This document shows positions 87 to 59,633 of a DNA stretch of 64,000 nucleotides, in pieces. Within the stretch, counting starts at the first letter, position 1, and every line of letters starts with the position of its first letter. This stretch comes from Kappaphycus alvarezii. Taxonomy: Eukaryota; Rhodophyta; Florideophyceae; Gigartinales; Solieriaceae. The translations under genes and the position numbers were made by a program. The notes below the pieces were generated by a model, which ran no database searches, was not told the DNA's origin, and saw nothing but the letters and a program-made list of their open reading frames with translations. The DNA is taken from contig NADL03000019.1 of NCBI GenBank assembly GCA_002205965.3, positions 186,001 to 250,000 of the forward strand, read 5' to 3'.

Positions 87-1782
87 ATGGCCGGAGTAGG
101 AGGGGTATGCAAAGAAGTGCATGGAAAAATTTGGACCAATCAGGAGGTAGTATTACCGTTGAATGGATCAACGGCATATCGGCCATGGAAGGTAATTGGT
201 CCAGCAGGGAACACGTACATACAAGGTCATACCGAGTATGAGAAGACCCCGTATGATTTTTTCCTTTGCATGTTTCCTATCGAACACCTTTCCACAATTA
301 CCGAACTTACAAACCGGAAACTCGCTAATGGTGGGCACATGCGTACACAGCTGGTGAAATTCTAAAGTTTTTTGGAATTCTCATATTGCTATGCAGATTC
401 GAGTTTACAAGCAGAAGGTCACTTTGGAGTACACAGTCTACATCCAAATACATTCCATTGGCGGCTTTTGGAAAAATCATTTCGAGGAACCGTTTCGAAG
501 CACTGGTTTCATGTATTACATTCAGCCGCTACACTGAAACTGAAAGCACTGACAGAAGATGGTCTTTGGTCAGCGGATTCGTGGAGGCCATAAAACGGCA
601 TAGGAGGTCAAGTTTTTCGCCATCGGAGAGAATTTGCGTGGATGAAAGCATGTCACGCTGGTACGGAATGGGGGGGATTGGATGTCAGAAGGACTACCGC
701 ACTATGTCGCCATGGACCGTAAGCCTGAAAACGGATGTGAGATCAAGACTGCGTGCTGTGGTGTCAGTGGCATTGTATTGAGTTTGGAGATTGTTTTGTC
801 AGCATCTGACTGCAGTAATCGGCGTTACGAGTCAAATTTCCCTCATGGTACTGCTATTGTTCTTCGCCTTACAGAGCCTTGGTTTCATTCGAATCGACTT
901 GTCTGTGCAGACTCTGCATTTGCTTCCGTGGCCACAGCAAATGCGCTTTTTGAATATGGACTGAGGTTTACAGGTGTCGTCAAGAATGCGACAAGGCAGT
1001 TTCCTATGTCATTTTTGTCAGGGCTGGAACTTTTCAGGCGCGGAGATCATATCTGTATGGTAAGTCCGAGGACGGAAAGCCACCCTTCTATGATGGCCGT
1101 TCTGTGGATGGATAGAGACAGAAGATACTTTGTCAGCACCTCCGGTACAACACTTCCGTCAGAGCCTATCAGAAGGTCTCGTTGGAGATCTGCTGGTAAT
1201 GAAACGCTACTTGTGGAAATGGAAATTCCAGTTCCAGCGGTTGTCAGCACATATTATCAAACGTGCTCCCAGATTGACAGGCATAACAGATGCAGACAAG
1301 ATGATCTTGGATTGGAGAAGAAATTCGAAGTCAATGATTGGTCGTTGAGGGTTAATACATCTTTGCTTGCAATTTGCATCGTTGACTCATGGCTTCTATA
1401 CAAGGGTTTGATGGGTGCAAGAAATTGCATGTCTCAAAAAGATTTTTATGCAAAACTTGCAGAGCAACTCATTGACAATTCATTTGATGCTATTGGCCTC
1501 CGCAGATCTGACATTGACGTTCCAGAGGATTCTGTTCCCTCATTGGCCTGCGGTACTGGAATCCACCTGGTACCCACAGTGAAAAGGCGCAAAGGAGCCA
1601 ATGGGGCCCCAACGAAAGCGGCGTTTCAAAGCAGATGCAAAATTTGCAAATCTGACAAGAAGTCCAAATTTCTCTGCTCTGAGTGCCTGAAACTGAACAA
1701 AGAGGTTTGGATATGCCATTCAGAGACAGGACGTAACTGCTTTCAAAATCACTTACGCGATGTCCACTTCTGTCATAATTAG
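87..1782 (+). CDS. piggyBac-type transposase (DDE_Tnp_1_7) with C-terminal zinc finger, two frameshifts
   Basis: Cut-and-paste transposase of the piggyBac superfamily. The N-terminal part (87-365) has the FFLCMFPIEHL and ITELTNRKLA stretch typical of the family. The catalytic region has ICVDESMSRWYG (first Asp, near 640), then LPHYVAMDRKPENGCEIK, then VCADSAFASVATANAL (second Asp, near 905). The third block is QIDRHNRCRQDDLG. The last 50 residues are a Cys-rich finger (CKICKSDKKS, CSEC, CHSETGRNC, then a His-rich end), as in many piggyBac proteins. The frame breaks at 353-354 (GG) and at the seven-G run 670-676. One extra G at each place joins all three parts, so the protein may be intact. 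The frame is open upstream of 87 to near position 9, so the true start may lie further 5'. I could not find paired terminal repeats with TTAA. Confidence 0.85.
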
Positions 1783-2468: not shown

Positions 2469-4000
2469 TCACGCGACATCTGCCGCGTATTTCTCTATGA
2501 CTCGGATGATGTCTCGGAAGGTGAACCTACCGAATCGAAAGCCAACGGTATAAAATTCCATCCTAACCTCGATCGCCCTGGCAGGACCGCGCCAGGAATG
2601 GCAGCCACTTCCGTGGCTAGGTCCCTTTTCTTCCGCTTTTCTGCTGCATTGGCAACTGCTCGCGCTTTCCGTGCTCCCACTGACATGTAGCTCTCCCTGG
2701 AATAGCGAGTATACGGTGATTTCATAGGCCACTGGGAGAGGGCGCGAGGTGTTCGATGCATCAGACGCGGGGTGCACCAGAATATCCGTGGGTCGCGCGT
2801 TGAGTCCAGGGAGTAGGTATTTGACATCGTATTGGACGCCAACTCCTGCTGCCTTGAACAGCTCTTGCCCAAATACTGTTCTCTCACAACTGCTGTGTGT
2901 CGGTTGGTCCACTCAAGGCCTTTGTTACAGAGGTCTGCTGCATGGCCTCCTAAGAGATCCACGGGCGTATGGCACACGGTGCACCACAGCGGTGCGGTGT
3001 CGTCAAACACGCGAACTCCCAGGTGACGACTTAGCATCACTGTCCACATCTCGTTGGACGTTCGGTTGACTACAGAGGGGTGTGTGTTGAGGAAGGCTCC
3101 TGCTTGCGTTTCCAAATATGCTTGACGTCGGATTCTTCGCCGAATATCTGCTTCTGAATGCGATGCGGGCTGGCAACCTCGTCCATTCATCGTCCTTCCA
3201 GAAGAACTTTGCTGCCGACTCGCACCAGGCGCGATAAAGAATGTTGTGTGTACTATCAGGCTTGGCAGCAAGGCTGGCCGCTGTCAGTGTTTCCGGAAGA
3301 CTGGCATCGTCGTTATCGAAGGACGTAGGGAGCCGTGGGGCAAGCTCCCGGAGATGTCTATCCGCTTCAGCGTATCTGCGCGCACAGTGTTCAGTCTCAC
3401 CAGGGTCCTCAGGGCTTCGCAGCTGCTCGGCATCAATTATGCTCGCAGCATATGCTGCGAAATTGAGCGTCGCCACCGGTGTAAAGCCGTGGCTGCCGTA
3501 GTGGAGAGGTAAGGACACCTGCCTTCGAACTGCACCAGTCATCGGCACTTTGTTGGAGCGTGCGTAAAATTCCAATTGCTCTTCGTCAAATCTCAGGGCA
3601 ATGGCAGTGGTCACAATCCGCGGAGTCAGTTTCACCACATGTTGAAGCCTACAAGCCTAGGCACATACCCGGTGAAGATGGAACCGAATTCGAGCGTCTT
3701 CGATACCGTCGATCAGCGACACTGTGTGCTAGCAGCCTGAAATTTTCCTGTTGAGAAAATTCTCCATACATTGGGACGACACAATTGGGGCCCCACGACG
3801 GTCGATGCCTTCGGTGGAGAAGTTCTCAATTGGGAAGCGGTGGAGTAGTGGCGATGCCCGTTGCTTGGTCGGCGCGGCCTGAACAGACGGGTTTTTGCAT
3901 GATTCAGACACAAGCCGTGATCGGGTCCTGTGGAGCTGCGGATGTACGTACCTACTGTACTGTACGATATACTCTGTAAAGTCAACAGCAACGGTGGTTG
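2469..4000 (-). pseudogene. Non-LTR retrotransposon reverse transcriptase, C-terminal half, decayed
   Basis: Read from 4000 down to 2469, this is the thumb and post-RT part of a LINE-like protein. It begins with GLCLNHAKTRLFRPRR and a region before IDGIEDARIRFHLHR. Next comes the typical VSLPLHYGSHGFTPVATLNF block, then LETQAGAFLNTHPSVVNRT with a Cys/His cluster (CTVCHTPVDLLGGHAADLC). The C-terminal domain contains RPTDILVHP, PVAYEITV and RSRLGWNFIPLAFDSVG. These parts lie in several frames, so the copy is broken. The same C-terminal domain recurs on the minus strand near 58.3 kb, so this is a repeat family. The N-terminal RT palm is missing. Confidence 0.75.
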
Positions 4001-4381
4001 GTCAGTCAAAAAAATCTATAACACTTCAGAAGGCCAATACGAATTAAGCTACCGCAGCGTACAACCTAACGCCAAAATCTCAAGTTAAGATATTGGAGAT
4101 ACGTTCGTTATTGTCACATATCAACCGCTCTACAGTTCTCAAGCTTCCACTGCTCTCTCTTAACTGAGAAGTCACTCGTTCTCACCCCGTAGCAGCAGTG
4201 ACGCTTCAGAGGACTCGTTTAAAAAGTTGTCCGAGAACACAACATTTCGCAAGCCCAGACTTTGCATCGATTGTAGGTGCTTGCGTTTGCTCCGGCGCAT
4301 CACTTGGTAACTGAAGTCGGATTTCAATAAACTGAGGCAGCCGGGTTAGGCAGGTATAATTGAAAGCACAGTCACTTCCCA

Positions 4382-5860
4382 ATGGATCCGGAAAAGTTTC
4401 AACCCCGGGACTCCTTCGACACAGCCCACGTCACTACAAACAGTGGCGCTCCTGTCGATGACAGTCTAAATTCGCTTACCCTTGGAGAACGAGGTCCGGT
4501 CCTCCTTTCCGACTTCCATCTCGTCGAGAAACTAGCCAATTTCGACGTGAGGTTATTCCTGAGCGGCGTGTTCATGCCAGGGGGGTTGCCGCCAAAGGAG
4601 TCTTTCAATGCACACATGACATTACACGATACACCATGGCTGATCCGTTCTCCAAAGTTGGTAAGGAGACCCCAGTAGCAGTGCGATTCTCAACTGTCGT
4701 ACATTCCGTGGTTCTCCAGAGACGCTTCGAGACCCGCGCGGATTTGCCACCAAGTTCTACACTGCTCAAGGAAACTGGGATCTAGTCGGTAATTTGGAGC
4801 CTGTATTTTTCATCCGTGACGCCATTCAGTTTCCAGAGATGGTGCATGCATTCAAGCCAAGTCCGAAACGGACAAGCAAGAGTGGCATCGCATCCTCGAC
4901 TTCTTGTCCTTCCACCCGGAGTGCATGCACATGATGACTTGGTTGCTCGATGACGTCGGCATTCCGAGAAACTATGAGACCATGAACGGGTCTGGAGTTC
5001 ATACTTTTGTCATGATCAACGCGCAGGGTAAAGAGACGTACGTCAAATTCCACTGGGTTTCGGAGCAGGGACAACACAACTTACTGGACGATGACGCGAA
5101 GCGCGTCGCGGGTGAGGACTTTAGTCATGCCACCAACCATCTTATTGAAAGCATTGAGATGGGTATCTTTCCCGCGTGGCAACTGAAAATTCAGGTAATG
5201 GATCCAGCCACGGAGCTTGACCACAACTGGGGGGACCCTTTGGATCCCACGAAAACATGGCCCGAAACCGAGTTCCCCATGATCCCAGCTGGGCGCATGG
5301 TGCTAAACCAGAACATGGACAACCAGTTTCTCCAAGGAGAGTGCATTGCTTTTTCTCCAGGAAATGTGATACCAGGTAACCTTCAGCCAGGACAAACTGC
5401 TCCAAGGCCGAATTTTCAGTTACGCAGATACGCAACGCTACCGGCTCGGTGCTAATTACTGCAACTACCCATAAACGCACCACGCTGTCCATTCATGAAC
5501 CGCCAATTCGACGGCGCAGGGAATACAATGCATCGGAAAGGGGACGTCAACTATTACCCTAGTTCCCTCGCAATGGCAAATACTGTCGGCAATGAACGTG
5601 TTCCTCATCCCAAACGTGCGGTGTCTGGCACACACGTGCGTAGGCCACTGTCCAAGCAGAATAACTTCGGACAAGCAGGAGAGCGGTGGCGGAGTTTCGA
5701 CGAGGCGCGGCGGCAAAGATTGGTTGAGAGGGCAGCAGATGCGTTGAACGCGCCTAAAGTTTCGAAATCGCTGAAGAACATTTGGATCGGTTATTGGACG
5801 GAGTGTGATCCTGAACTTGGGGCCAGAATTTCTGCTTTGGTCAAGACAAGCAAGATGTAG
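4382..5860 (+). CDS. Catalase, peroxisomal, with several frameshifts
   Basis: Heme catalase, breaking down hydrogen peroxide to water and oxygen. The start [20 protein letters not shown] and the following block to LVEKLANFD match the catalase N-terminus. The distal-His block (PERRVHARG) is present in a shifted frame near 4560-4590. [19 protein letters not shown] (near 4810-4865), [20 protein letters not shown] (near 4930) and the proximal heme Tyr region ([16 protein letters not shown], near 5410-5455) follow. Length, about 490 residues, is normal. The protein ends in SKM, a type 1 peroxisomal targeting signal variant. Frameshifts fall at about 4546, 4706, 4867, 5380-5388 and 5459. Each is repaired by one extra base in a short C or A run, and little else is altered. 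I infer an intact intronless gene with read errors; a recent pseudogene is the alternative. Confidence 0.93.
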
Positions 5861-6855
5861 CGTAAATTGGTAGGCTTTGCACGCCGGGTGAACTATTACT
5901 TGTCTTTAATGAATAGTGTGCGTATGTTAGTGTTGCTAGAGTGTTAATACATCAGCAGAATACAATACAATATTGACGAAATACCCTACGCAGCTGTCTA
6001 CGAAAATAATTGTCGGGCACTGCAGGATTTTCTGCCTGCGTAACTAAGGGGCCGCTTTGCACTGAAAGAAGCGCTCCTCGTCGTCACCCTTGCTGATCTA
6101 GCCGCCAAGCGAACCACGAGTCTCCTACAGTGAAAGGTAGTCCGTGGATTAGAAGACGGCACGCGAATGAATACGGGCTTGGATAAACTTGCAGCGTAGC
6201 ATTCGGAGCGCATGTAGACGTCATCATAAAGTCTTCTGCAATAGGATTGTAAACAGCAATCGTGAGGACATCATGTATTGCACAGACATTCACGAGGGCC
6301 TGCACACAACTGAGAACTCTCCACGCAGTAGACGGCAGAGGCGATTTGAACGGAATGGATCTCTACTAACGCAAGTGGTCAACGATATGCCGGTGGTAAG
6401 CCGAGCTATTGTCTCGTAGCAAGTAATCGCGATGGCTCTCCATAACTGCTAGGATCACTGCCAGAGACAATATTCGGAAAGACGGAAAGTAGGTAGCGCG
6501 ATAAACTCAGGTTTCATCACTGCCCTTCTTTCTCTACTTGAAAATCATGAACAAATTGTGTTGAATGGCTCACTCGCTCGACGTGTTTTTGCACCGTACA
6601 GTACTGTGGCTGTCGATGTGGTCAGTGATGACGCGCAGCCATCGTCTTACAGAGCTTCGCCTTTACAGGTCTTTCGTACTGTAAGTACAGTCCATTTACA
6701 CATACAGTAGTAACTGTACAGTACAGGAACAACTGACGCAGTTCTACAAACTTCATTGTACCCTTTCTGCATCAATTTGATCCAACCCCCGTCATCGTCG
6801 TTTCCCGCCGCTCTCAATTGCAACCTCCATCATCTGTCAGCATTTGACCCTCACC
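5861..6855. other. Intergenic, no supported gene; TACTG-type repeats
   Basis: No recognisable coding region was found between catalase and the PPR gene. Short runs of the CAGTA/TACTG pentamer lie at about 6595-6608 and 6674-6728, next to the 3' end of the minus-strand PPR gene. Short ORFs here look like chance. Confidence 0.5.
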
Positions 6856-8958: not shown

Positions 8959-10186
8959 AAATACTATGCGTCCCTACCAGGATTATCAGGCACTTGCAAA
9001 CCAGTTGCCGTTGCAATTTCATCTCAAGGGTGATTTCAAGCGTGACTCTCTTGATGCGGCTTCATTGTATCATTGTCTTATATTAACCGTGATGGATTTC
9101 CCGTCCTCAGATCACCCAGGCACTAACCTGGCTTGCCCAGTTACCTGCGTTCCACTGTGGTATTCCTTCTCTGAAATTTGGGTGGTTGCACCGACCAACC
9201 CTACCTTGCCACATTACACAAACCTGGTTCATGACAAAGTCTCGCGTCTGTTGTGTGCGAGAGGGAGTACGGACTAGCCCCGTGCAGTATCTTATCAATC
9301 AAGGGTGCCATAGTGGGCAGAGTACTTAGAAGCATCATTGGCGGAGTGAGTCTACCGGATAAACACTCCATGACTGGCTACGTTTTCGCCAGCTGTGCCC
9401 AAGTCCATACCACCACCACCCCCATCGTATTGCCACCGACTCACGACCTGTAATGCACATCGACCCCTCGTACAGCGAAAATTATGGCCCAGTTTAAGAA
9501 AACATAGCCTAGATGATACCAAAAAAGTCACACGTCTGTGCACATGGCCACCGTGCTGTAAGCAGGTTTGGAAGTCTTCCTTGAATTCATCCTAGAGACT
9601 GCCAAACCACCTCTACCGTCAGCTTTAATACAGTATTCGGGGACTGGACTTGACCCGTGCAGACCAAGGTGGTAAAATACGGCCTGGGAAGGTGCCGAAG
9701 GGTGTCACAAAAGTCTGGACCACTGGCTGAAGGGCTTCCGGCTGTAAGGTTTGCGGTGTCGAAAATTTGGCATGTTCAATAATTCGACTGTCAGTTGTTC
9801 ATATGTGTTTTCACCCAATCAAGTTTGCACAGGTGTATGCCAAATTTCGTCGTAGGGCCCCTTACAGCATAGCCTTAATCACAGCTTGCTATTTGGACAC
9901 GTTGCACCACAACAGCACGGATGCTGCTTTTTTAATTTTTTCTGGCCACTGTACTGCAAATGAATCTTGATTCACTCCAATCGCATGTTTTCATTTCTAC
10001 GTCAACAAAATTTGGGTCCCTCCTTTCTTCACCTCCTGAACGAATTTACGGACCACTGACACTAGAATCCGCGACTCCGATTTCTGCTACTCATCAAGAC
10101 CTCACCCCGTCACTTAATCCTCACACTTCTACCAACACACGCTACACCTTTCACGACAGCCAGCACTTGACAATCTACAACCCACC

Positions 10187-11574
10187 ATGTCCGAATGCTA
10201 CACCAACGGCTCCTACTCGCCCGCCTTTGCCGATTTTGCCGGCAACCGTCCCATATCCACCGTCGATCCCGAACTATCGAGCTTCTGCACCGTGAGAAAG
10301 AGCGTCAATATGCCGGCATCGAGCTCATTGCCTCTGAAAATTTCACCTCCCGTGCCGTTATGGAGGCCCTCGTTCCTCCCTCACCAACAAATACTCCGAG
10401 GGCCTTCCAGGCGCCCGTTACTACGGAGGCAATGACGTTATTGATGAAATTGAACTCCTCGTCCAACGTCGTGCACTCGAGTGTTTCGGCCTTAATGAAT
10501 CGGAATGGGGTGTCAATGTCCAACCCTACTCTGGCTCGACCGCCAATTTCGCATTGTACACAGGTATTTTGCAGCCGCATGATCGCATCATGGGTTTGGA
10601 TTTGCCCAGTGGTGGTCATTTGACCCATGGTTTCTACACGGCAAAGAAGAAGATCTCGGCAACCAGTGTCTACTTTGAGTCATTGCCGTATCGTGTCGAT
10701 CCGGAGACCGGTTACATCGATTATGACAAACTCGAGGAGACGGCCTTGCTCTTCCGTCCGCGGTTGTTGATTTGTGGTGCGAGTGCATATCCTCGTGACT
10801 TTGACTTTGAGAGACTTCGTGAGATTGCAGATAAGGCTGGAGCTTTGGCTCATGTGCGACATGGCGCATGTATCTGGCCTTGTTGCAGCTGGGGAGATTA
10901 GCAACCCGTTTGAGCTGTGTGACTTTGTCACGTCGACTACGCACAAGAGTTTGAGAGGGCCGAGGCAAGGGCTTATCTTTTATCGCAAGGGTGGACAGGA
11001 GAATTGGGAGTTGCGTATCAACCAGGCAGTGTTTCCGGGGTGCCAGGGAGGCCCGCATAATAACACTATTGGGGCTTTGGGAGTGGCGCTGAAGGAGCTA
11101 TGACTCCGGAATTCAAATTGTATATCCAACAGACCAAGGCGAATGCAAAGATTCTTGGAGAAGAGTTGGTGGGTATGGGGTACAAACTGGTGACAGGAGG
11201 AACGGATAACCATTTGGTGCTGTGGACTTGAGACCCGAGGGATTGACTGGCTCCAAGGTGGAAAGCTTTGTGACCTGGTGCACATTACATTGAATAAGAA
11301 TGCTGTGGCTGGTGATACCTCTGCGTTGTCTCCTGGTGGGGTGAGGATTGGGGCGCCAGCCATGACGTCGAGGGGTTTGGTAGAGGATGACTTTGTCAAG
11401 ATCGCAGGGTTTTTGGACAAGGCTGTGAAGATTTCGTTGAGGATTCAGGGAGAGGTGGGGAAAAAGCTCAAGGACTTTTCGGCGGCGGCCGAGAAGGATG
11501 AGGAGGTGGCAGGACTTAAGGAGGAGGTGATGAAGTTCTCCAAATCGTTCCCGATGCCCGGTGGATGCTTGTAG
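10187..11574 (+). CDS. Serine hydroxymethyltransferase, cytosolic type, frameshifted
   Basis: PLP enzyme that moves a one-carbon unit between serine/glycine and tetrahydrofolate. The start ([20 protein letters not shown]) follows a CACC leader and has no long transit peptide, suggesting a cytosolic form. Then come [39 protein letters not shown] and [11 protein letters not shown]. The PLP-lysine block [12 protein letters not shown] is near 10930-10965, followed by [16 protein letters not shown] and the C-terminus [20 protein letters not shown]. Length, about 460 residues, is normal and there are no introns. Frameshifts at about 10277, 10372, 10847, 11097, 11222 and 11263 are each fixed by one base, mostly in G or A runs, and the residues on both sides stay conserved. 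I infer a working gene with read errors. Confidence 0.93.
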
Positions 11575-12628: not shown

Positions 12629-13579
12629 TCAGGCCCTCGATAACACAGCTTCCTCCCCGACTGCGTCCCTGACTCTTTCAAACCACTCATGCAAGTCCGG
12701 TTCCTTTCCACCATTTCCGCAAAGGTATCGAATCCCTGAATCGCCTTTAGCACCCCATACACACTCAAATCTGCCATCCCCGGACGTTCACCCCGAAGAA
12801 CCTTCCGCCCTGCTCTCTCACCGCCTCCATCCAGTCCCCCAATGCCGACGCGAATTCGCTTCTCTCGTCTTCAATCCCATACTTTTTCTTCAATTTCCTC
12901 CCCACCATGTACATCGCCGCAGCCCCTGAATAACGAATGGTTCCACGTTGCCATGCGGAGAACTTGGCATTGTCCGTAATATACTGAAACGTCTGTAGTG
13001 ATTCCGATGGCGTACGGTAGATATTCGGCGCTATGAAATGAATTAGAGTGTCGTCGAGCCATTTCAACCACTGGCGTTCCTTATCCGACGGCCGCTTGGA
13101 CATGCCCGTGGCGGCACACACCGCGTCAATAACCGCAGCACTGCCATTAACCTGCTGCCCATCTATCATAGCAATCGGCACTTTGCGATACTGCGAATCG
13201 GGAAGCCCAACGAGTTCCGTCTTTCGAAGCGGGTCAACCTCGATAACGGAATATGCGATACCATGATAGTCCAAATACGCACGAACCTTGTTACAAAACG
13301 GGCACACTTCATACTGATAAAGCACAATATCAGGCGTAGAACCAGCGGTACGGGTAGCGGCAGCAGGTGCGGCCTCGGCATGCACAAGGCGGACGGGTGG
13401 AATGAATCGGGAGTATAGTGGCGGTAGCGAAGGTGGAGGCGTACAGGACCAAGGGGCAGCGATCGCGGAACGGGAAAGGAAGATGGCACCGAGGCGAGAA
13501 GTGAGGGCAACGGCTTGTGATGGCGCAGGTGGCGAGAGACGCGAGTAATAGCAGTGGAGAGGCGCGAAACAGACACCAT
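12629..13579 (-). CDS. PTGES2-like protein (glutaredoxin domain plus GST-like C-terminal domain)
   Basis: Homologue of membrane-associated prostaglandin E synthase 2. The basic N-terminus (MVSVSRLSTAITRVSRHLRH) looks like a mitochondrial targeting sequence. The glutaredoxin-like domain has LYQYEVCPFCNKVRAYLDYH, with a CPFC redox motif, then YRKVPIAMIDGQQVNGSAAV. The GST-like domain has LKWLDDTLIHFIAPNIYRTP and SGAAAMYMVGRKLKKKYGIE. The end (MADLSVYGVLKAIQGFD, then DLHEWFERVRDAV) lies in shifted frames. Breaks occur near 13385-13500, at the C4 run 12791-12794 and at 12699-12700. The last two are mended by one base in a run. In organisms without prostaglandins this family is thought to act in mitochondrial redox or heme-linked roles; the substrate is unknown here. 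Confidence 0.85.
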
Positions 13580-21069: not shown

Positions 21070-23359
21070 AGTATTTTTCGACGATTATGCGATTGCGTGC
21101 CACCTATCTATTGTAGAGTTTTTAATTTACAGTCAGAACTCACGAGGAGGAATTTCTGGGGATGGTAGCTCGAAAAAATTCTAGAGGGCGTTAGAATACC
21201 TTATCCAATATTATTCTCCACTAATTACCATACTTGTGTCGCAGTGAAGACCATTGTCCTCAATTGACCCTCACCACGCGCTTCGTCAACTCCTGCAGAT
21301 GCCATTCTTTCTGGCGCTGTAAAATTTCCAGGTCCGAATCTGGTCTAGGGTATTTATCACTCGCGCCAATACAAAAACTATTCTACAACACCGACACCTC
21401 CACCTTGTAGCCATACAGCTTATTTTTCCGCTTTAATACTTCTTTCCTTCTTCGGTATTCTCACTTAGACGAAGCGACTGCTGAAAAGTGGAATCATTAG
21501 CATAATGAGCCTCCGGAATGTTTTCGAAGAGGTGGTGACCCTCATGTAGCTGTTACGTGGTAAAAGAAGCGCCAGTGTCCATCACAAAATACTGACAAGA
21601 GTACTCAGAAAAACTGAACAAGAATTTCGTCACCAAATGCTCCGGTATCGGCGCTTTCATGCTAAAGAGTTTCACTAAGACATCTCGTTGGCCTCCGTGA
21701 TTCATCACGGTGAGTAAAATAAAAGTTCATCTTTACCGGTGACCTTGGTTCTCTGCCCTCTTCCCACGTTGTGCGTGCGCATGAAGTCCTTTTACAAGAA
21801 AGACCTTAGTGATTCGAACTGATCGAGGGAAAAATTAATCATCCCCAAAATGCATTTAGTGCCACCTTCTCTGTAAATCCGTCAAAATTTGGGCAAGGAG
21901 AATCACTTTCATCTTTATTAGTTTCAGCGTTGTGTGCCTCTTTATTGCTGAATATTTTTTCCTTCGCTATTGCAGCATCTGCTAGAAGCTGGAGGGAAGC
22001 GGAGGTCTTTGTAGGCGTGATGTGTGGGTGGCGACACGGTCGTCCTCAACTTGGTCAATTGCGGGAGTATGGGAATGCTGGGAGGCGAACGCCATTACTG
22101 AGATTTTGATGGAGCAAAGGGCCGTTGTGTTACGAATCGCAAAGAAGCGTTGTCCACCATTGTTTAGAAAAAGTGTTTTTCGAATAAGCAAGAGGCGGGC
22201 TGCTTTGCATAGTAAACTTTCATGGGTCTTTTAGCGGATTTTGGTGTTTTTTGTTACTGTTGTATCTCAGAACCGAATGCACTCAATTGCGTATTGCGTG
22301 TGTCAATTTTGAAATGACCGCGCGTGCGAGCAATTCAAAAGAGATTGAGCAATTAACTTATTCTCCCTTTATTTAATATGTGCAGAGTGCCCTTCTAGTT
22401 GAATAAATTACAGTGAAATTGGCATAAAATTGGTAAGCAACACTTTATTTAGTTTGATACTTTTGCGTATGTCGGTAATGGAATCATATTGGCTATTTCG
22501 CCACTCCCTGACTATATGCGGTTTCATTCTAGTGGGACTTCTTACGGAAAAAAACGCGTTCACAAGACTCGTGGCCACCTTTTTCCGCAACTATGGATTT
22601 GTCTCCAGAGCCCAAACCTGATATATTTCACATCTATATCATCAAACGACTTTCAGTCGCCGCATAGAACCGTCCGGTCTCCTCTGCATTTTGTCCAAGA
22701 AACTTGTAGACTCTCCTTTATGATCTACAAAGATTTTTTTGGTACCTTTCCAGACGAAGAAGTTACCCTGCGCTGGGTAACTGTGTCCGACAACACCAAT
22801 AAATTGTGAATTGCACTGATATCCCCAACTTTTGCCCCGAAAAACAGTGTCCGGATGGTTTTAGTCACGTGCTTGAACGAGGTCAGTGACTTGAAGGCTT
22901 GTAGCCAAGTACGCAACAAACAGAAGTCTCGTAATGCTGCTCCCATTAACCGCAAAATTGTATTCGACAAATATGAACCCGACCATAACAGATACCCGGA
23001 AAAATTTCTCCTGCTATTTTCTGCCACCATCGCCTTCATTTGAATGTTCACCCGCGATTTAGCAGTTTAAAGGCGATCCTTTACTCATTCTCCGGATCCT
23101 AAAAATACTTCAACAACTTGAACCTCCTCCATGCATAGAATTTTTGCGCCGCGGAATGATAAAAAGTGATTGCGGTCAACAGTTTATATAGAGCTGAAAT
23201 AGTCCAGCCTCCAGGCACTTGATATATATAATCGCAAAAGTCCCCTCAACCTCAGTCTAATTGAGGTACTGGACGAAATATCTTGCAGCTTGCGTGGAGG
23301 CTGCATTCTTCACTTCTGTGAAGCAGTTCTTCGGTAGTTTTACAAACCCAGGTACACTT

Positions 23360-48639: not shown

Positions 48640-50024
48640 TAGCATTATGCTACTTTACCATCCTGGCAACAATTTCCGATCTCGACTGCACAGAGTGGCC
48701 TTCAACTTCTCCGAAATTGTTACACGTCGTTCCCCCTCCTATTGCAGCGGAAGGCGCCAAATGCTTTGACGAGATGATCGATAAATGCGTCCGAACTCTA
48801 GCCGGAGGCGTTTTAGACCGTGAAGTCTTTCGAGAACCAGCTCCCAGTGAAACCGCTAAACCCAAGAAACCATCGCTGGGGGTAGGCTCATGACGGCTCG
48901 CGACATTTCCGCCGCCTCTTTCCTCGCATCTTGGCCACTGCTGATACCCTAGGCCGCTCCCTCTTACCGGCTTCAGTACGACCGCTGAGCACATACAAAG
49001 ATGCAGCCGACGCCTATAGGGAGTGGTCTGCCTCATGTCCGCCTTCGAAGATAGTTTCCTTCAGCGCTTTTGCTCCAACAACGTACCCTCGCAAAAGAAG
49101 CTCACGGATGCAATTCACGAAGCGGCTCAAGAGCTCATACCCCCTGGCGATACCAGGAGACAAGCTTTTCGCTCGTCGATGGGCCTTCCCGGTGCTAAAC
49201 AATGGTATACTGCACACCATGCCCGGGCCTTAAGACATTCATTGCTCCCAAGGCTTTCTCCGTCTGACTCCAATATTATTGCCAGGTCCCGTCCTTCGCC
49301 CCCAACACCCCGTGCCCCAGGAGAAAGTGCCCCGGAAACCCTGGACATCTTCGGCGACCACCTCCTGCACTGCTTGCATGGCCGAGAGCGAATCGAGCGT
49401 CATGACCGCCAGATTACGGTCCTCGCGTCGCACTTAGCAAAGGCCGCACGACACCCGGTCATGGAGCCCCGTCCCAAAGGCAAGCACCGCACAAGGCCAG
49501 AAACCAAGGCTATGGGGGGCACCGGAGAGACAGACTTTTTCGACGCTACATTCGTCAATCCACTTGCTCCCTCCAACACACTGGCCCGTTGCTTCAACCC
49601 CTTGACATCTCTGAACGCTGCGAAAGCGTCGAAGTTCAAGAGGTATCAAAAGACTTCGTCACCACGCATCCCAGGTCCCCACAGATCCCAGTGCCGATAT
49701 CCACTCTTGCCGGGTGGCACCCGGACGCATTCGCGGTGCTCACAGACGTGGCTAAACACGTCGCCGTACGAGCCATGGGGACCTTCGGGCGGGTGCGATC
49801 TGTCCTTACGCAAAGACACGCCGCGGCGACGGTTTCGTCCAACGCAGCATGCCTTGCGGCTGGCCTCACACCAGCCCTGTGAGGTAGTACCTCATGACTC
49901 GGCCTCATTTCCAGACTCTTCATTATACAGACCTGTCCCCGCTAGTCTTCGGAAAATAGCCGTCCTACATCTCAAATCAGTAAAGCACCCTAATCCCCCC
50001 CCTTTACCCAAATGGAACATGTGA
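48640..50024 (+). pseudogene. Non-LTR retrotransposon reverse transcriptase, C-terminal part, broken
   Basis: Plus-strand pieces in changing frames follow the post-RT order of LINE-like proteins. AAEGAKCFDEMIDKCVRTLA and GVLDREVFREP (48745-48845) are followed by ADTLGRSLLPASVRPLSTYK and DAADAYREWSASCPPS (48930-49050). Then KKLTDAIHEAAQELIPPGDT, SSMGLPGAKQW, the Cys/His motif FGDHLLHCLHGRERIERHDR (49350-49410), TGETDFFDATFVNPLAPSN (49520-49575) and WHPDAFAVLTDVAKHVAVRA. The last part is the C-terminal domain. Palm motifs are missing upstream, so the copy is 5'-truncated, as is usual for LINE insertions. It belongs to a different subfamily from the copy at 2.5-4.0 kb. Confidence 0.75.
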
Positions 50025-58716: not shown

Positions 58717-58724
58717 TATAAATA
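58717..58724 (+). promoter_or_regulatory. TATA-like box upstream of the permuted tRNA gene
   Basis: TATAAATA lies about 50 bp before the 3' half of the tRNA gene. Position and sequence fit an upstream RNA polymerase III element. The usual internal A and B boxes are in reversed order in this gene, so an upstream element could matter. Confidence 0.45.
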
Positions 58725-58774
58725 GAATGTTCACACTCCAGATTCGACAGAAGCGGGTCGTGGGGTGCGCGCAA

Positions 58775-58864
58775 CGTTCAGGTCGTAGTATATGTTGTAT
58801 GCGTGAGTTCGAATCTCACCGGTGTCACAGACTGGGCACCGTGGCCGAGTGGTCTAAGGCGCTA
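58775..58864 (+). tRNA. Circularly permuted tRNA-Leu (anticodon CAG)
   Basis: The 3' half (58775-58827) lies upstream of the 5' half (58835-58864), with 7 nt (CAGACTG) between. The 3' half holds loop TTCAGGT with anticodon CAG at 58779-58781, stem CGTAG, a 14-nt variable arm (58789-58802), T stem GTGAG/CTCAC around TTCGAAT, acceptor strand CGGTGTC and discriminator A. The 5' half holds acceptor strand GGCACCG, U8, D stem GCC/GGC, G18G19 and CTA. Joined in mature order they give 83 nt. Acceptor: seven pairs, one G-T. Anticodon stem: CTACG/CGTAG, five pairs split between the halves after A29 (or before it; an A on both sides leaves this ambiguous). D and T stems are complete. The long variable arm and CAG fit leucine. 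No ordinary partner half lies near either end. Permuted tRNA genes matured through a circular precursor are known in Cyanidioschyzon merolae and some green algae. Confidence 0.88.
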
Positions 58865-58865
58865 A

Positions 58866-58928
58866 GCACTCGTCGCTTCCTTTTGTCGCTTCGACAAAGG
58901 GGGAAAAGCTTTGGTGCTTTAGACTTTT
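58866..58928 (+). terminator. Structured trailer and T-run after the permuted tRNA
   Basis: CCTTTTGTCG (58879-58888) and CGACAAAGGG (58892-58901) form a 10-bp hairpin with a 3-nt loop and one T-G pair. An outer stem AGCAC (58865-58869)/GTGCT (58914-58918) can enclose it. T4 runs at 58881-58884 and 58925-58928 are candidate polymerase III terminators; the second follows directly after the outer stem. GCACTC at 58866-58871 can instead pair with GGGTGC at 58763-58768 upstream of the 3' half, forming the kind of helix needed at a bulge-helix-bulge splice site. Confidence 0.5.
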
Positions 58929-59351: not shown

Positions 59352-59400
59352 AGTACAGTACAGCACAGCACAGCACACAGCACAGCACAGTACAGTACAC
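59352..59400. repeat. CAGTA and CAGCA pentamer run
   Basis: GTACAGTACAG is followed by repeated CAGCA units and then CAGTACAGTACA. It is a pentamer microsatellite with a T-to-C variant block, about 280 bp outside the left end of the Harbinger element. Confidence 0.85.
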
Positions 59401-59633
59401 CGAAGAACTTTATGGCAGTAGCGAACAGTACAGTTCATTGGGAAACGCGGGCTAAAAGGACTTGACACGAGGGGTAGTTTCATTTTCCTGACAACAGCAA
59501 TCGCACACGAGGCCTAATTGAAATGACAGATGAGTAAACTAAGAGCAAGTCTAGCAGTGGGGCAAAATTTGCGCCGTTGAAAAATAATATGCACCGTTGG
59601 AGAACATAAAATTAAGTTGCAAACCAAGCAGTG

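Follow-up and report, generated by a model that had tools for sequence, protein, structure and literature searches.

A probable circularly permuted nuclear tRNA-Leu(CAG) gene with a predicted bulge-helix-bulge at its join in the red alga Kappaphycus alvarezii

A permuted tRNA-Leu gene, very probably a real one, lies in the 64,000-nucleotide stretch of Kappaphycus DNA analysed here (the window). The 3' half of the tRNA precedes the 5' half on the forward strand, and a short spacer links the discriminator base to G1 (Table 1). Most probably the locus is a red algal nuclear gene for tRNA-Leu(CAG) in circularly permuted form, whose product would be processed through a circle spliced at a bulge-helix-bulge (BHB). 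The initial annotation had read the locus as a permuted tRNA-Leu(CAG) gene; that reading is upheld and is strengthened by the predicted BHB at the junction, the TATA-like box and the TTTT run.

The joined cloverleaf and the order of its halves

When the two halves are swapped they form an 83-nt RNA in which every stem is paired, and ARAGORN, applied to the swapped halves, calls it tRNA-Leu(cag), the class II tRNA with the stems that the initial annotation had described. The coordinates given there for the halves (58775-58827 and 58835-58864, 7 nt apart) proved exact to the base when the sequence was re-read. In the ARAGORN structure of the joined tRNA, the acceptor stem has 7 bp (one of them G-U), the D stem 3 bp and the T stem 5 bp, and the discriminator is A. 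The anticodon stem (5 bp) is built from both halves, CTA+CG pairing with CGTAG, and closes the loop TTCAGGT, while the variable arm comprises 4 bp by eye and 3 bp as drawn by ARAGORN. Inspected by eye, U8, A14, G15 with C48, G18G19, U33 and T54T55C56 are all in place; the bases listed originally (U8, A14, G18G19 and U33, with the anticodon CAG) are all among those found. A cloverleaf that appears in swapped order and carries the conserved tRNA bases is what is expected of a permuted gene. CCA is not encoded at the boundary between the 3' half and the spacer. Counted from the anticodon, the permutation junction falls between positions 29 and 30.

Table 1. Features of the permuted tRNA-Leu(CAG) locus, in window coordinates.
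Feature	Position	Strand	Basis
TATA-like box TATAAATAG, likely RNA polymerase III upstream promoter element	58717..58725	+	sequence; putative function
BHB strand contributed by the leader: GGGTGC of the outer helix (58763-58768), GCGC of the central helix (58769-58772) and bulge bases AA (58773-58774)	58763..58774	+	predicted fold
3' half of tRNA-Leu(CAG), C30 to discriminator A73: CGTTCAGGTCGTAG-TATATGTTGTATGC-GTGAGTTCGAATCTCAC-CGGTGTC-A	58775..58827	+	sequence, ARAGORN, pair probabilities
Anticodon CAG	58779-58781	+	within 3' half
Variable region	58789-58802	+	within 3' half
T arm	58803-58819	+	within 3' half
Acceptor 3' strand	58820-58826	+	within 3' half
Spacer CAGACTG, 7 nt, linking A73 to G1	58828..58834	+	sequence
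5' half of tRNA-Leu(CAG), G1 to A29: GGCACCG-TG-GCCGAGTGGTCTAAGGC-G-CTA	58835..58864	+	sequence, ARAGORN, pair probabilities
Acceptor 5' strand	58835-58841	+	within 5' half
D arm	58844-58860	+	within 5' half
Central helix strand GCGC of the 5' half, pairing with the leader	58859-58862	+	predicted fold
Bulge TAA (58863-58865) and trailer outer helix GCACTC (58866-58871)	58863..58871	+	predicted fold
TTTT run, a likely terminator for RNA polymerase III	58881..58884	+	sequence; putative function

The locus could also be read in ordinary order. ARAGORN reports a tRNA-Leu(cag) at 58750-58828 as well, and the Rfam tRNA model aligns to 58746-58827 with 15.8 bits (E 2.1), so that the gene would be an ordinary one and the D-arm-like stretch downstream of it unrelated. 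We regard this as highly improbable: the score stays under the cut-off of 29, the call leaves two acceptor positions and one position of the anticodon stem mispaired and has a poor D arm, and a better acceptor partner (7 of 7 pairs) stands downstream together with a D arm. A natural-order tRNA at the locus was rejected on the Rfam score and the mispairs, and an Rfam scan of the window at the cut-offs of its models found nothing. The flanks were scanned for other partners. Over the 2 kb that follow the 5' half, no TTCRA-looped T arm able to complete that half satisfied the criteria. Over the 2 kb that precede the 3' half, six 7-mers carry T8 and A14 and can pair with the acceptor strand at 6-7 positions, none of them with a convincing D arm as judged by eye. 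The statement that the halves fail in ordinary order and have no other partners nearby accords with the score of 15.8 against 29 bits and with the flank scans. Further copies of the halves were sought across the window: no other site comes within 10 mismatches of the 30-nt 5' half, and the best other site for the T arm and acceptor strand has 9 mismatches in 25.

A predicted bulge-helix-bulge and flanking transcription signals

Known splicing endonucleases cut behind the second base of each bulge of a BHB. The predicted BHB at this locus has an outer helix of 6 bp, one of them G-U, and a central helix of 4 bp (GCGC/GCGC); its two 3-nt bulges, TAA and AAC, face opposite ways, one on each strand. 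The leader strand reads GGGTGC-GCGC-AA|C, and the strand composed of 5' half and trailer reads GCGC-TA|A-GCACTC. The predicted cuts, after 58774 and after 58864, fall exactly between A29 and C30, the join that the tRNA needs. The bases alone fit a junction at 28/29 just as well, since an A stands on either side, and 29/30 is preferred because the BHB picks it. A BHB-like motif with its cuts at the join is a further property expected of a permuted gene, here by prediction. The initial annotation had placed the junction at CTA/CG from the halves, and the predicted BHB sits exactly there; absent from that annotation, this predicted motif is the weightiest addition to the case for a permuted gene.

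Pair probabilities are 0.98-0.99 for the central helix and 0.76-1.00 for the outer helix, and the minimum-energy fold of 58755-58885 includes the BHB helices along with the T, variable and acceptor helices. When the 20-nt flanks were shuffled as mononucleotides, the full central helix with an outer helix of at least 6 at the same register recurred in 692 of 1,000,000 cases, and a minimum-energy fold with the central helix and at least 4 outer pairs recurred in 1 of 300; both flank-shuffle tests were devised after the motif had been noticed. The total folding energy of the precursor is unremarkable (z -0.62, with 54 of 200 shuffles equally or more stable). The motif is a relaxed form in which the inner exon-side helix of the strict hBHBh' motif is absent. 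Its central helix takes up G24 and C25 of the D stem, and the precursor fold shows a shifted D hairpin and three anticodon-stem pairs; the D arm and the anticodon stem must therefore refold once the halves are ligated.

The signals expected around a permuted gene are present. The TATA-like box that the initial annotation had mentioned upstream was located as TATAAATAG at 58717-58725, separated from the 3' half by 49 nt; the TTTT run follows the 5' half after 16 nt. As far as presence goes, the box thus lies upstream and the T-run downstream, and neither is inside the 7-nt spacer. In C. merolae, most permuted genes have a TATA-like sequence at most 50 bp upstream of the 3' half, with a T-stretch downstream, and the intervening sequences of permuted genes span 1-74 nt (PMC3978253), a range that the 7-nt spacer fits. 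The A and B boxes of C. merolae permuted genes are reversed, as they are at the Kappaphycus locus; because of this order, binding of TFIIIC has been doubted in C. merolae and TATA-led transcription proposed (PMC3978253). In having a TATA box, a T-run and a short spacer, and in not encoding CCA, the locus agrees with known algal permuted genes.

We infer transcription, cutting, ligation and end trimming at this locus from the pathway of C. merolae and green algae, in which splicing at the BHB turns the precursor into a circle, the spacer is removed by RNase P and tRNase Z, and CCA is added (PMC3978253). By analogy, the upstream TATA box would direct RNA polymerase III to produce one transcript containing leader, 3' half, spacer, 5' half and trailer. 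As modelled, the leader would pair with the 5' half and the trailer as a BHB. The tRNA splicing endonuclease would then cleave both bulges, a ligase would link A29 to C30 to give a circular RNA, RNase P and tRNase Z would excise the 7-nt spacer, and CCA would be added after this excision.

Chance matches, look-alikes and the host genome

How readily such an arrangement arises by chance was gauged with a scan for the permuted core, defined as a T arm, an acceptor closing over a spacer of at most 80 nt, U8, A14 and a D stem with GG in its loop. The real window gave two matches, a loose one at 22179 and the tRNA-Leu locus, and 200 dinucleotide shuffles, scanned on both strands, gave 30. With a 5-bp T stem and a 7-bp acceptor required, the tRNA-Leu locus was the one match in the window and the 200 shuffles gave none. 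ARAGORN, run on swapped segments of the same geometry from each position on both strands of the window, made eight calls, all of them offsets of this locus, and called 0 of 319,550 swapped segments from shuffled sequence (five shuffles, one strand).

Viral contigs provided a control of another kind. At least 120 loci in them have a T loop ahead of a D arm and were chosen for this, and in the 120 that were scanned the permuted core matched 45 times in 29 loci, 11 times with full T and acceptor stems. ARAGORN was run on 9 of these 29 loci, holding 11 of the 45 matches, and 7 of the 11 coincide with neighbouring ordinary tRNAs (L023 twice, one of two at L069, and L047, L084, L095 and L102). Three further matches, at L042, at L120 and the second one at L069, have a T arm to which ARAGORN assigned no ordinary tRNA, and in L028 it calls no ordinary tRNA anywhere. 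The Leu-type permuted pattern had no match in the viral contigs. Because tandem ordinary tRNAs in the viral loci mimic the core, a permuted core alone is no proof of a permuted gene. It is the intact cloverleaf of the joined halves with the BHB at the join, and not the core or the overall stability, that marks the tRNA-Leu locus out.

The same mimicry lends some weight to the idea that the locus is a dead remnant, in which a tandem pair of ordinary tRNA-Leu genes shed its outer halves and left a functionless 3' half beside a 5' half. Duplication followed by loss of the outer parts is also the published model for the origin of permuted genes (PMC3978253), and neighbouring ordinary tRNAs often resemble the core (the 45 matches, 11 of them full, in 120 viral loci). 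We consider a remnant improbable nonetheless, given that the joined stems are intact, the BHB lies at the exact join, and the TATA box and T-run stand where they are expected; the joint retention of all four would not be expected in a functionless locus.

YrlA Y RNAs carry a T arm, an acceptor hairpin and a D arm in permuted order on paired ends, and their genes adjoin a gene for a Ro60-like protein (TROVE or DUF2828). A non-coding RNA of this kind at the Kappaphycus locus, with paired ends for a Ro60-like protein and a tRNA-mimic tip in permuted order, would share the topology described here, and the Rfam YrlA model (RF02553) is the second of two matches at the locus, with 14.2 bits (E 5.5). 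The phage-like contig L028, moreover, has a permuted core beside a DUF2828/DUF7788 gene. We judge a Y RNA at the Kappaphycus locus very improbable: 14.2 bits stand against a cut-off of 69, and a Y RNA would have no need of three features seen here, namely the complete anticodon arm (U33-CAG-G37), the variable arm of class II type and the predicted BHB. Among the 16 different window ORFs scanned with Pfam, none matched a Ro-like gene. Unlike the permuted tRNA gene proposed here, YrlA Y RNAs are not tRNA precursors.

In contig L028 (IMG/VR 3300042314_001838), the permuted tRNA-like core at 5476-5589 (-) has a 7-bp acceptor hairpin, a T arm and a D arm, the flanks of the core pair as AGGATCT/AGATCCT, and the core adjoins the DUF2828/DUF7788 gene (ORF 3702-5147, -). 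Rfam found nothing in positions 5148-5805 of the contig. A permuted tRNA there, perhaps with a group I intron, was considered and dropped. The DUF2828/DUF7788 neighbour is the reason for reading the core as a Y RNA; perhaps L028 is a case of a phage that encodes a Y RNA of the YrlA type and a Ro60-like protein to go with it.

The host was placed through a PTGES2-like gene at about 12632-13579 (-), which has frame changes inside conserved stretches. Among the best 120 of 452 matches of its protein, the top named ones are red algal (Chondrus crispus, 68% identity; Gracilaria domingensis, 64%), and a eukprot transcript reaches 81%. In a tree of 16 rows (the window protein and 15 of those 120 matches), the window protein pairs with the eukprot transcript (support 98/93) within a group of Chondrus, Gracilaria, Agarophyton and metagenome rows with Hildenbrandia outermost, and land plants stand apart. 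Because this is one gene tree, we infer, rather than establish, that the host lies near florideophyte red algae.

A Pfam scan of the window ORFs identified catalase, SHMT and LSM protein genes. By eye, the catalase gene (4000-6100, +) and the SHMT gene (10171-10901, +) also have frame changes within conserved stretches. The frame changes in the PTGES2-like, catalase and SHMT genes suggest either uncorrected assembly indels or decaying copies. Several other elements were observed in the window. A DDE_Tnp_1_7 transposase, which we take to be piggyBac-like, occupies 329-1782 (+) in two overlapping frames that are probably one frameshifted gene. A long ORF at 49020-50024 (+) resembles the end of a retroelement reverse transcriptase by eye and has no Pfam match at E 0.05. 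A short tandem repeat of the AGTACAGCAC type lies at 59352-59408, about 490 bases past the tRNA gene.

With frameshifts in housekeeping genes, the assembly may carry small errors, and base accuracy may be modest, which is what could be said for an assembly artefact that put the halves in permuted order. Small errors of this type would hardly create a permuted arrangement, and a random misjoin would hardly yield a BHB centred on the join together with a 7-nt spacer closing a 7-bp acceptor. We attach almost no credence to an artefact.

Permuted tRNA genes and tRNA splicing in red algae

In the literature consulted, permuted tRNA genes are on record from one archaeon, two chlorarachniophyte nucleomorphs, C. 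merolae, four prasinophytes and the green alga Auxenochlorella (PMC3978253, PMC12633428, PMC4494063), those of Auxenochlorella (PMC12633428) and Amorphochlora (PMC4494063) being later additions. The 34 genes tabulated by Soma in 2014 (PMC3978253) have junctions at 15/16, 20/21, 37/38, 50/51 and 59/60, and the sole red alga in that table (Table 1 of the source) is Cyanidioschyzon merolae. The junction found here, 29/30, does not appear in that table. The described positions are a range and not a requirement for permuted genes; relative to Table 1 of PMC3978253, 29/30 is new as a permutation junction, and permuted tRNA genes themselves were already known. Among the matches listed, which were open-licence titles and openings of abstracts, there was no report of permuted tRNAs in red algae beyond the Cyanidiophyceae; a report not listed may exist.

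The closest parallel is the permuted tRNA-Leu(CAG) of C. merolae, whose junction is at 37/38 and whose spacer is 9 nt (PMC3978253, Table 1). Like the Kappaphycus gene, it belongs to a red alga, represents the same isoacceptor, places the 3' half first and has a short spacer, and C. merolae permuted genes generally share the upstream TATA-like box, the downstream T-run, the BHB at the join and the absence of an encoded CCA. The two differ in that, compared by description, the C. merolae junction lies in the loop and ours in the anticodon stem, and in that the Kappaphycus host was placed near florideophyte red algae. The precedent of C. merolae and green algae, which the initial annotation had invoked, is apt, and the host itself also groups with red algae.

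Permuted genes of Ostreococcus, Micromonas and Bigelowiella (prasinophytes and chlorarachniophyte nucleomorphs) have the same gene order, and many are class II (Ser, Leu); their junctions differ, lying at 37/38 except for an atypical one at 15/16 in O. tauri (PMC3978253). Interruption of the anticodon stem has an earlier instance in a permuted gene, the tRNA-Ser(TGA) of O. lucimarinus with an intron at 27/28 (PMC3978253). In the archaea Staphylothermus and Nanoarchaeum, the split tRNA-Lys(CUU) is joined at 30/31, likewise through a BHB within the anticodon stem; unlike the circle proposed here, it arises from two separate transcripts that are spliced in trans (PMC3218864).

For tRNA splicing, the position of the join would be informative. 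Yeast-type splicing endonucleases measure to the 37/38 site, and a join at 29/30 lies away from it; the gene therefore predicts that the endonuclease of the alga reads the BHB itself. An endonuclease of this type has been proposed for C. merolae, and the gene suggests one in a further lineage of red algae. In C. merolae, junctions and introns are scattered across the tRNA, and a Sen2-Sen34 enzyme independent of the tRNA body has been suggested (PMC3978253), while introns at odd places in the tRNAs of cryptophyte and chlorarachniophyte nucleomorphs hint at a similar freedom (PMC4090602).

More broadly, permuted tRNAs may be a standing feature of red algae and no mere peculiarity of the tiny Cyanidiophyceae of hot springs, with tRNA-Leu(CAG) already permuted in the ancestor of all red algae, the break point shifting later inside the anticodon arm, and the gene described here serving as the main reader of CUG. 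We put this forward tentatively and as the less probable outcome; if true, it would require red algal splicing endonucleases that follow the BHB in archaeal style and not the distance from the tRNA body. Since C. merolae has a permuted gene for this isoacceptor too, an ancient trait and repeated invention could be told apart by examining tRNA-Leu(CAG) across sequenced red algae. A clean case near florideophytes, in a transposon-bearing genome, would give the trait a broader spread among red algae and show that it depends neither on a very small genome nor on hot, acidic surroundings.
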